Assembly (NCBI RefSeq): GCF_041435335.1
Contig: NZ_CP108430.1
Location: 2,108,001-2,172,000 of the forward strand
Reading direction: 5' to 3'
Origin: Streptomyces sp. NBC_01283
GTDB lineage: Bacteria; Actinomycetota; Actinomycetes; Streptomycetales; Streptomycetaceae
Length of the DNA: 64,000 bases
Part shown: piece by piece, positions 25,162 through 27,449 of the stretch
Numbering within the stretch: the first letter of the stretch is position 1
Layout of the letters: each line of letters begins with the position of its first letter
Notes under the pieces: generated by a model
Databases searched by the model: none
Told to the model about the DNA's origin: nothing
Seen by the model: only the letters and a program-made list of their open reading frames with translations
Position numbers and translations under genes: made by a program

Positions 25162-26121
25162 TCAATACGACGTCCAGGGCCGTAGTTTCTCGGGGTTCCG
25201 TACCGCCCACATGCGCGTGATCCGGTCGCCCTCGATGTCGAAGGCCAGCACGGACGTGGTGACGCCGTCGTGCTGGACCACCAGTCCGGGCTGGCCGTTC
25301 ACCGTGCGTTCCAGGATCGTCTGATCGAACGCCTGCTCGTCGATGACGGCGGAGACGGCGACCAGGTAACGCGCGATCTCCTCGCTTCCCACGAGGGGGC
25401 GGGGCGCGGAGTCGACCAGCCCTCCGCCGTCGGCGAGTGCCGTGGCGTCGGGGTCGAGGATACCGATGAGCGCGGCGATGTCCTTGGTTTCCCAGGCGTG
25501 CCTGAAGTCTCTGACGACGGCGGCGCGCCGGGCAGCCGACGGGGCGGGTACGTCCGAGGCACGGGTACGGCGGCGCGCCGACGAGGCGAGCCGGCGGCAC
25601 GCCGCCGGGCTGCGTCCGACGATCTCGGCCACTTCCGCGAAGGAGTAGCGGAAGACGTCGTGCAGGATGAACGCGACGCGCTCGGCCGGGGTCATCGATT
25701 CGAGCACGACGAGGAAAGCCATGCTGACCGACTCGTCGAGAGTGACCCGGTCGGCCGGGTCGGCGGTCGCGCCGCCCTGCCGCCCGTCGGCCCACTCCGT
25801 GCGATCGGGCAGCGGCTCCGGGATCCATTCGCCCACGTAGCTCTCGCGCCGGACCCGCGCCGAGCGGAGCTGGTCGAGGCAGATGCGCCCGGCGACCCTC
25901 GTCAGCCAGCCGCCGGGGGATTCGATGGCCTGCTGCTGCCGCGGGGACATCGCGTACCAGCGGACGTAGGCCTCCTGTACGACGTCCTCGGCATCCGCCA
26001 GGGAGCCGAGGAGCCGGTACGCGAGATTGATCAACTGGCGCCGTTCGCCCATGACCGCACTCAGGCTCGCGTCGATCTGTCCGTCGATCTGTCCGTCGCC
26101 GGGCTCGAACTGGGTCCCCAT
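25162..26121 (-). CDS. sigJ: ECF41-group RNA polymerase sigma factor (SigJ-like)
   Basis: Extracytoplasmic-function sigma factor of 319 residues with a fused SnoaL-like regulatory domain in place of an anti-sigma factor. Region 2 is ERRQLINLAYRLLGSLADAE onward with WYAM; region 4 includes VFRYSFAEVAEIVGRSPAAC. ECF41 hallmarks are present in slightly altered form: EWIPEPL between the regions (WLPEP in the group), LADGGG in the C-terminal domain (DGGGK), and RNPEKL near the end (NPDKL). Groups of this type normally regulate themselves and one CMD/oxidoreductase/epimerase gene. That fits the divergent AhpD-like gene and the mirrored promoters between them. Confidence 0.93.
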   Translation of the reverse strand: MGTQFEPGDGQIDGQIDASLSAVMGERRQLINLAYRLLGSLADAEDVVQEAYVRWYAMSPRQQQAIESPGGWLTRVAGRICLDQLRSARVRRESYVGEWIPEPLPDRTEWADGRQGGATADPADRVTLDESVSMAFLVVLESMTPAERVAFILHDVFRYSFAEVAEIVGRSPAACRRLASSARRRTRASDVPAPSAARRAAVVRDFRHAWETKDIAALIGILDPDATALADGGGLVDSAPRPLVGSEEIARYLVAVSAVIDEQAFDQTILERTVNGQPGLVVQHDGVTTSVLAFDIEGDRITRMWAVRNPEKLRPWTSY

Positions 26122-26184
26122 GTGTCGCCGCTCCCTTGCCGCGTCAGCCGTCCCGCGTCCGACGCGACAGCCTCTCCCACTCCC

Positions 26185-26210
26185 GACGGGACAGCCCCTC
26201 GGAATGTGAC
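26185..26210 (-). promoter_or_regulatory. Candidate ECF41-type promoter for the sigma factor gene
   Basis: On the minus strand: -35-like GTCACA (26205-26210), a 16-base spacer, then CGTC (26185-26188). This equals the ECF41 promoter pattern as I recall it (TGTCACA, about 16 bases, CGTC). It would give a leader of roughly 55-60 bases to the sigma factor start and implies self-activation. Confidence 0.65.
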
Positions 26211-26225
26211 GTCGCCCCCCCGCAC

Positions 26226-26251
26226 CTCACATTTCGAGGGGCTGTCCCGTC
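26226..26251 (+). promoter_or_regulatory. Candidate ECF41-type promoter for the AhpD-like / YceI genes
   Basis: On the plus strand: CTCACA (26226-26231), a 16-base spacer, then CGTC (26248-26251). It is the mirror image of the sigma factor promoter with one changed base in the -35 element (C for G). The leader to the ATG at 26343 would be about 85 bases. Confidence 0.6.
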
Positions 26252-26342
26252 GGTGCTGCAGGGACGACAACGATCCCGCCACCGGCCGGTCCGCCCGTCC
26301 ACGGGGTGGACCGGCCGGACAGCCAAGAAAAGGGAGATCACC

Positions 26343-26816
26343 ATGCAGGCCCGTCTCGACTTCCTCACCAATCCGGTCTCGGCCGGTGCCGTCAAGCACA
26401 TCGCCCTCGCGGGCAGGTCGCTCCTGGAGTCGACGCTGCCGGCCGCGACGCGGGAGCTGGTCGAGCTCCGCGTCAGCCAGATCAACGGCTGCGGATTCTG
26501 CGTCGACATACACACCAAAGAAGCCGCGCACGCAGGAGAGACCCAGCAACGCCTTCACCTGGTCGCCGCCTGGCGCGAGGCCACGGTGTTCACCGACGCC
26601 GAACGGGCCGCCCTGGAGCTGGCGGAAGAGGGCACGCGGATCGCGGACGCCGCCGGTGGCGTCCCGGACGAGGTGTGGGCGAACGCAGCCAAGCACCACG
26701 ACGAGGACCAGCTCGCCGCCCTGGTGTCGACCGTCGCCCTCATCAACGCCTTCAACCGCCTGAACGTCCTCACCCAGCACCCGGCGGGCGACTACAAGGT
26801 CGGCCAGTTCGGCTGA
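26343..26816 (+). CDS. AhpD-like carboxymuconolactone decarboxylase-family protein
   Basis: A 157-residue single-domain CMD protein. The redox centre QINGCGFCVDIHTKEA has the CxxC and distal His of AhpD-type thiol peroxidases; residues ELVELRVSQ precede it as in the family. It likely acts as a small peroxidase or disulfide reductase. It is divergent from an ECF41 sigma factor, which is the textbook genomic pairing for that group. AAAAGGGAGATCACC precedes the ATG, giving a strong ribosome site. The YceI gene follows 87 bases later on the same strand. Confidence 0.92.
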   Translation: MQARLDFLTNPVSAGAVKHIALAGRSLLESTLPAATRELVELRVSQINGCGFCVDIHTKEAAHAGETQQRLHLVAAWREATVFTDAERAALELAEEGTRIADAAGGVPDEVWANAAKHHDEDQLAALVSTVALINAFNRLNVLTQHPAGDYKVGQFG

Positions 26817-26903
26817 CCCGGATCCACCACGGCTGGAGCCCCGGCCCGAGCGGCCGGGCCCAGCCGTCCACGCGCGATGACGAGAGAAGAGGCAGGAGGC
26901 ACC

Positions 26904-27449
26904 ATGCCCACCACCCTCAGCGCCGGCGAACTGACCGGCGCCTATGCACTCGACGCCGCCCGCTCCCGGGTCGGTTTCGTCGGCCGGCACACCATGTCCA
27001 CCCGGGTCCGCGGGGAGTTCGAGGAGTACGAGGGCAGCGGCTACCTGTTCGGCGACCACCCGTCGAAGTCCAGCGCACGCCTCACCATCCGGGCGTCGAG
27101 CCTCCAGACGCACCACCGGCAGCGTGACGAACAGCTGCGCGGCACGTTCCTGGACACGGACCACCACCCCTCCATCAGCTTCGCCTCGACCGCGGTACGG
27201 CCGGTCGACGCGACCACCTACGAGGTCACCGGCGACCTGACGATGCGCGGCGTGACCAAGCCGGTCACCTTCCACGTCGAGCTGACCGCCGCCGAGTCGG
27301 ACGCGCGGGGCGACATCCGGATCGGCCTCCTGGGCAGCGCCACCATCGACCGCAAGGACTGGGACCTGAACTGGAACGCCGCGACCTCCGTCCTCGTGAG
27401 CCCGAAGGTGACGCTGGAGTTCGACCTCATCGCCGTCCGGCAGCCCTGA
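26904..27449 (+). CDS. YceI-family lipid/isoprenoid-binding protein
   Basis: A 181-residue YceI lipocalin-like protein that binds long-chain isoprenoids or amphiphiles. Characteristic pieces are YALDAARSRVGFVGRH, FLDTDHHPSISFAST, GDLTMRGVTKPVTF and the closing DLNWNAATSVLVSPKVTL. No signal peptide is present, so it is cytoplasmic, as for many actinobacterial members. I used the ATG at 26904 because GGCAGGAGG lies just upstream; an ATG nine codons earlier in frame (26877) has no site. Placement after the CMD gene suggests one ECF41-controlled transcript. Confidence 0.92.
   Translation: MPTTLSAGELTGAYALDAARSRVGFVGRHTMSTRVRGEFEEYEGSGYLFGDHPSKSSARLTIRASSLQTHHRQRDEQLRGTFLDTDHHPSISFASTAVRPVDATTYEVTGDLTMRGVTKPVTFHVELTAAESDARGDIRIGLLGSATIDRKDWDLNWNAATSVLVSPKVTLEFDLIAVRQP

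Follow-up and report, generated by a model that had tools for sequence, protein, structure and literature searches.

Two probable ECF41-type promoters, back to back in an inverted repeat between a sigma factor gene and an AhpD-like gene of Streptomyces

The divergent locus and its inverted repeat

The stretch of DNA analysed here, called the window, is 64,000 nucleotides long and belongs to a Streptomyces genome of 9.59 Mb in five contigs. In it, a 221-bp gap separates two divergent genes, one for a sigma factor of 319 residues (25162–26121, minus strand) and one for an AhpD-like protein (26343–26816, plus strand). The sigma factor is assigned to the ECF41 group (SigJ type) by the NF007214 model, which it matches at 307.6 bits (cut-off 271). 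Profile searches gave Sigma70_r2, Sigma70_r4_2 and a C-terminal SnoaL_2-like extension; the SnoaL_2 match itself, at 22.9 bits, lies below the Pfam threshold of 27, and the SigJ subfamily model is above its own cut-off. By sequence, the best solved relative is SigJ of M. tuberculosis (PDB 5xe7, 2.7e-44), likewise an ECF41 factor with a SnoaL_2 extension, while the nearest named relative among the matches listed is from Streptomyces longisporoflavus (81% identical). ECF41 factors carry a WLPEP motif in the linker between sigma2 and sigma4 (PMC3426412). Here the motif reads WIPEP, at residue 99, and its W, P, E and P are present in all 74 core relatives (window included), with the I in 68. The factor therefore has the sigma2 and sigma4 regions, the SnoaL-like extension (of about 100 residues in this group), the WLPEP-type motif and the COE-type neighbour (PF02627) that mark an ECF41 factor. 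COE stands for carboxymuconolactone decarboxylase, oxidoreductase or epimerase.

The neighbour, presumed to be the target of the sigma factor, is a carboxymuconolactone decarboxylase (CMD) family protein of 157 residues with CGFC at residue 50 (PF02627, 4.3e-22; TIGR00778, 9.6e-21). It is followed on the same strand by a gene for a YceI-domain protein at 26904–27449 (PF04264, 1.4e-42 for 26907–27449, start codon excluded), whose start we place at the ATG at 26904 rather than at 26877 as in the list of open reading frames. Since the gap is short and the strand the same, the YceI gene is probably on the AhpD-like gene's transcript. In all, four proteins were typed around the locus: the sigma factor, two CMD proteins and one YceI protein. 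ECF41 loci characteristically lack an anti-sigma gene, and there is none among these typed neighbours.

A preliminary description of this DNA had reported a 26/27 inverted repeat between the two genes, and this was confirmed. The repeat spans 26183–26253, with arms at 26183–26209 and 26227–26253 that match at 26 of 27 positions, and at 28 of 30 (93%) when extended inward. Among all placements of 27-bp arms with loops of 3–30 in the 64 kb it is the only one to reach 26/27; 16 placements reach 20–25. Read outward, as had been described, each arm has the layout TCACA-N16-CGTC. The arm facing the sigma gene reads GTCACA, a 16-bp spacer TTCCGAGGGGCTGTCC and CGTC; that facing the target reads CTCACA, the spacer TTTCGAGGGGCTGTCC and CGTC, so that the base before TCACA is G on one side and C on the other. 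The predicted sigma-directed promoter (26185–26209, minus strand) has its -35 TCACA at 26209–26205, preceded by G at 26210, its spacer at 26204–26189 and its -10 CGTC at 26188–26185, with a predicted start at about 26180–26177. In the predicted target-directed promoter (26227–26251, plus strand) TCACA (26227–26231) is preceded by CC and followed by the spacer (26232–26247) and CGTC (26248–26251); the start would lie at about 26256–26259. A 17-bp centre (26210–26226) separates the two TCACA cores.

The published ECF41 promoter is TGTCACA-n16-CGTC, with a spacer tolerance of 1 bp either way and with starts mapped in two species; of 55 divergent ECF41 loci, 36 have the motif ahead of the sigma gene and 41 ahead of the target (PMC3426412). 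Dual promoters at such loci are thus already known. Compared with the published TGTCACA, the first two bases in the window are CG on the sigma arm and CC on the target arm, the latter being the usual form in the clade of the window's factor, and TCACA-N16-CGTC is exact on both. A weight matrix trained on 73 relatives, with the window excluded, scores the target-side arm at 35.9 and the sigma-side arm at 35.2, against a training median of 33.9. We also scanned the window's own genome for sites with exact TCACA and CGTC boxes and scored 53 of the 55 found (two on contig C3 were omitted). The best of the other 51 scored 18.5. The arms are the sole strong site pair of their class among these 53, and the circuit looks closed on itself as regards exact-box sites. 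From its sequence, the inverted repeat very likely represents two ECF41 promoters.

Conservation of the promoter pair among relatives

The 81 loci compared comprise the window and the 80 best of 544 confirmed relatives of its sigma factor in named genomes. With exact boxes, both promoters are found in 45 of the 81 and no pair in 36. With a relaxed matrix, whose cut-off was never reached by reversed sequences (0/162), both are found in 64, the sigma-directed promoter alone in 14, the divergent one alone in 1 and neither in 2; these counts lean upward because the matrix was trained on overlapping loci. Even so, at least one promoter is missing in 17 of the 81. A search made independently of the protein found the paired pattern in 26 of 392 same-genus genomes (own included), and the reversed pattern in 1 of 392. 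A sigma match lies near 24 of the 26 paired loci (at L095 it is a 53-residue piece; L104 and L105 have none). In wider samples the pattern turned up in 32 of 394 genomes at class level and 8 of 396 at phylum level; the samples overlap, include the own genome and contain some chance-like matches (e.g. L146, which has no sigma match). Conservation of the arms and layout in relatives had been set beforehand as a check, and it was borne out. The proposal of two outward ECF41-type promoters, probably served by one factor, is therefore supported by the conserved layout as well as by the arms themselves.

Conservation extends into the spacers. Across 74 related loci, window included, whose sigma factors share at least 60% identity with that of the window along the matching part, there is a marked bias, given here for the two sides, towards T6 (94/90%), C8 (90/86%), G14 (91/82%), G17 (90/89%) and T20 (87/93%), and downstream of CGTC towards G25, A27 and C28 (75–89%). 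The window arms are without the downstream GTACTG found in several relatives. In the 37 loci with a gap of 15 bp between the TCACA cores, the mean information content is 1.00 bits per position in one spacer and 1.07 in the other, compared with 0.13 in the far flank on the target side and 0.57 on the sigma side, which probably holds the ribosome site. Box and spacer conservation cannot be compared, because the search fixes the boxes at 100%. The preliminary description had taken the identity of the arms beyond their boxes to point to a duplication or to a second protein that reads the spacer. Neither is required by the identity in itself, which is largely explained by a promoter longer than its boxes, the spacer being conserved in 74 loci; in the near-perfect case of the window, past homogenisation or duplication may have contributed.

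The spacing between the promoters is also tight. The TCACA-to-TCACA gap is 14–17 bp in 35 of the 45 exact pairs (26 at exactly 15; the other ten range from 4 to 93) and in 52 of the 64 relaxed pairs (40 at exactly 15), all from the best 80 of the 544 relatives plus the window. The centre of the 37 gap-15 loci is itself conserved, with the consensus GGCGACGCGCCGACC at 0.98 bits per position. At the window the gap is 17 instead of 15, and the centre deviates from this consensus. Larger centres (L011, L021, L053) consist of tandem -35-bearing units, with several CTCACA-like copies in L053 and L021; a helical phasing of about 10 bp steps outside gaps 14–17 was considered and dropped on account of these tandem copies. 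If transcription starts 5–8 nt after CGTC, the two predicted starts at the window lie some 76–82 bp apart, about the space that two polymerases need, and mutual exclusion or contact of the two polymerases may therefore be possible.

Likeness of the arms and rival explanations

The reading we favour, with a probability of roughly 0.8, is that one sigma factor uses two back-to-back extended ECF41 promoters to transcribe its own gene together with the AhpD-like and YceI genes, forming a self-amplifying circuit. The inverted repeat would be two copies of the extended promoter (about CCTCACAnTnCGnnGnGnTGTnTCGTCGnAC), facing away from each other. The SnoaL_2 domain, judging from published work on ECF41, would release the factor, and the holoenzyme would then use both arms; transcription of the sigma gene by its own product would amplify the signal, and the target would be a peroxidase-like enzyme. 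Selection appears to act on the whole block beyond the boxes: spacer, near flanks and back-to-back spacing are kept across numerous genera, whereas target genes differ. The residue at position 181 in region 4.2 would read the base before TCACA; it is Ser in the window's factor, and other ECF41 factors, in which it is Arg, keep G at that base. The unusual identity of the window arms would then reflect two near-consensus promoters, one of which may have homogenised the other.

A recent inverted duplication, or homogenisation by template switching, could have made the arms alike, in which case the identity would reflect copying and not a function of the spacer; we regard this as possible, though somewhat on the doubtful side. 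Spacers alike at 15 of 16 positions or more are seen in 3 of the 74 loci (the window, L009 and L097), where cross-locus pairs lead us to expect 0.22 (Poisson 0.0015). At a score cut-off of 33 the figure is 3 of 26 against 0.26 expected, and at 35 it is 0 of 11 against 0.23. Both window arms have a C at spacer position 20, a base found there in 8/74 promoters on the sigma side and 2/74 on the target side (window included) and shared by L097 on both arms. In L009, the nearest relative among the matches listed (81% identity in the sigma factor), the two arms depart from those of the window in the same manner. Adjoining the left arm, furthermore, is a partial third copy of the spacer and -10 block (26159–26176, plus strand), a direct repeat of that arm at 16 of 18 positions without a -35. 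None of 2972 random 343-bp pieces of the window reached 16, and 15 pieces reached 15, so this copy speaks for duplication activity in the gap.

Against copying as the general explanation, dual promoters are widespread and their spacers usually unlike, with a mean likeness of 9.4 of 16 within loci and 8.9 across loci; the pair itself was thus probably not made recently. A shuffle test of arm likeness over 45 loci gave p = 0.001. When the tree was controlled for, the pair test gave p = 0.024 for 45 pairs and 0.11 for 37 core pairs, and among the control stretches that further downstream gave 0.021 and that adjacent downstream 0.59. General concerted evolution of the arms was therefore rejected, the tree-controlled test being weak and a control stretch as significant as the spacer, and the idea is kept as a suggestion for the three loci only. 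In these, one arm may now and then have been copied onto the other, or selection may have favoured a pair of equal promoters.

A bolder version of the favoured reading, which we think unlikely but by no means far-fetched, treats the block of about 65 bp as a single bidirectional promoter of composite build. A pair of ECF41 holoenzymes, or one holoenzyme and a partner, would bind it back to back, their 15-bp spacing being fixed by contacts with each other or with the conserved centre; spacer and flanks would serve as a paralog-specific address (compare the second class of sites in the own genome, three loci, below); an Arg-to-Ser switch in sigma4.2 would have turned a TGTCACA -35 into CCTCACA; and the module would be kept as its target is swapped. 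Also unlikely is that the arms are the operator of a second DNA-binding protein, or of the SnoaL_2 domain, bound to the symmetric block as a composite element. The conserved 15-bp centre of the gap-15 loci and the tight spacing would suit such an element, as would the title of a paper, in the reference list of PMC8999054, according to which the SnoaL_2 domain of SigJ modulates promoter recognition. However, the window's own centre deviates and is 17 bp long, no other regulator was found among the four proteins typed around the locus, and the 14 loci of 81 noted above have a sigma-directed site with the whole motif but no divergent partner.

Finally, it is very improbable that the repeat acts as a hairpin (a terminator, attenuator or cruciform): although its single-strand DNA fold is strong (z -9.4), the predicted starts lie outside it, so that neither ECF41-driven transcript would contain it, most relatives have the promoters without the pairing of the spacers, and scans of 25900–26600 and 26050–26400 found no terminator-like site, Rfam match over gathering scores, RNA hairpin or sigma-70-type promoter.

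Promoter discrimination, targets and known systems

The two arms of the window differ at the base before TCACA, and this base tracks a residue of the sigma factor. Among 91 loci there are 16 whose factor has Arg at the position equivalent to Ser181, and in all of them G precedes TCACA on both sides. In the 75 loci whose factor has Ser, Thr or Gln, G is found on the sigma side in 9 and on the target side in 3. These counts are not independent, since they come down in essence to a single split between clades, together with L145 (which has Gln, and C before TCACA). The window's factor, with Ser181, has the usual C on its target arm and the rarer G on its sigma arm. In the own genome, the paralogs readable at this position (L226, L227 and L228; L229–L232 were left out) all have Arg, and TG precedes TCACA at the nearest sites of two of them, none being found for L228. 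The base before TCACA is probably read by the residue at Ser181. Unequal strength of the arms, raised in the preliminary description, has a rationale in this association, because the differing base tracks the sigma4.2 residue: if the link is causal, the arm with C, on the target side, should be stronger than the arm with G, on the sigma side.

The own genome also contains a second class of sites, at L224, L225 and L226 (C1 near 1129965, 8893033 and 3339599), which share TCCA, GTCACATTCC, CG-CGC, CGTCA and AGTGA (L224:1266, L225:1334, L226:2200). That at L226 is divergent from a paralogous sigma gene, that at L225 precedes a gene named CMD-like by eye, and that at L224 precedes a small membrane protein, DoxX-like by eye. 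These sites, in one genome, suggest that paralogs may be kept apart by spacer and flanks, and that targets in trans may exist for some ECF41 factors. L227 (C1 near 1390900) has a TGTCACA site with a 17-bp spacer ending in GGGGCTGCCT; the site lies some 1 kb upstream of a match to a paralogous ECF41 factor and points in the same direction.

A second target of the window's factor was sought in an AhpD paralog (78% identical) at C1:1899156–1899623 of the same genome (G000), which has TGTCACA-N16-CGTC just upstream (L223:2088; C1:1899663–1899687, minus strand). This candidate was rejected: with TGTCACA and a matrix score of 10.5, the site more likely belongs to an Arg-type paralog. In other genomes of the genus, four AhpD genes (L158, L161, L167, L174) have TCACA-N16-CGTC about 64 bp upstream with a spacer theme of their own, GCCGAGCTGTTC, and a sigma match is absent from the 3.5 kb covered at each.

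A divergent reading frame follows the promoter in 90 of 91 non-redundant pairs, as called by a mechanical ORF caller that probably took the wrong frame in some (e.g. L080). Eighteen target ORFs picked for variety were typed by Pfam and gave 14 families: CMD, YceI (2), DoxX_2, SnoaL_4, FMN reductase (2), LUD, FAD-binding/BBE, MMPL, short-chain dehydrogenase, NAD(P)-binding, epimerase, methyltransferase, beta-lactamase fold and DUF6220. For the ORFs at L012 and L014 no Pfam match was found. Five of the typed targets (L145, L150, L182, L201, L202) stand under factors less than 60% identical to the window's. This variety implies that the control block stays while its cargo changes.

A single DNA element serves both directions in those bidirectional bacterial promoters whose -10 elements are symmetric and overlap. 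The window differs in having two full promoters back to back, with their -35s inward. It is closest to the divergent <ECF41< >COE> loci of Wecke et al. 2012 (PMC3426412), with which it shares the sigma group, a CMD-type neighbour, the 16-bp spacing, the CGTC -10 and a motif often found before both genes. In the portion of that paper available to us, the motif is TGTCACA and bipartite, and a fixed back-to-back spacing, a spacer consensus or a CCTCACA clade is not mentioned; the targets of the present loci also go beyond COE, unlike those of the set described there. Titles and opening lines of abstracts in the literature searched contained neither the fixed spacing nor a spacer consensus, and the latter may have been described earlier. 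A figure legend in PMC3817407 refers to logos with spacers for 29 ECF subgroups, ECF41 not being named in the available text. Within this literature, the extended consensus, the tight back-to-back geometry, the swapping of targets and the residue–base link appear to be new.

ECF41 factors are widely distributed, often with several copies in one actinobacterial genome (PMC3426412), and the avoidance of crosstalk between such paralogs is a question that concerns every large ECF family. The conserved spacer, the tight geometry and the association between a region 4.2 residue and a promoter base offer direct and cheap handles on promoter discrimination. A natural switch of this kind, bidirectional, self-amplifying and found beside a wide range of target genes, would be useful as a building block too.
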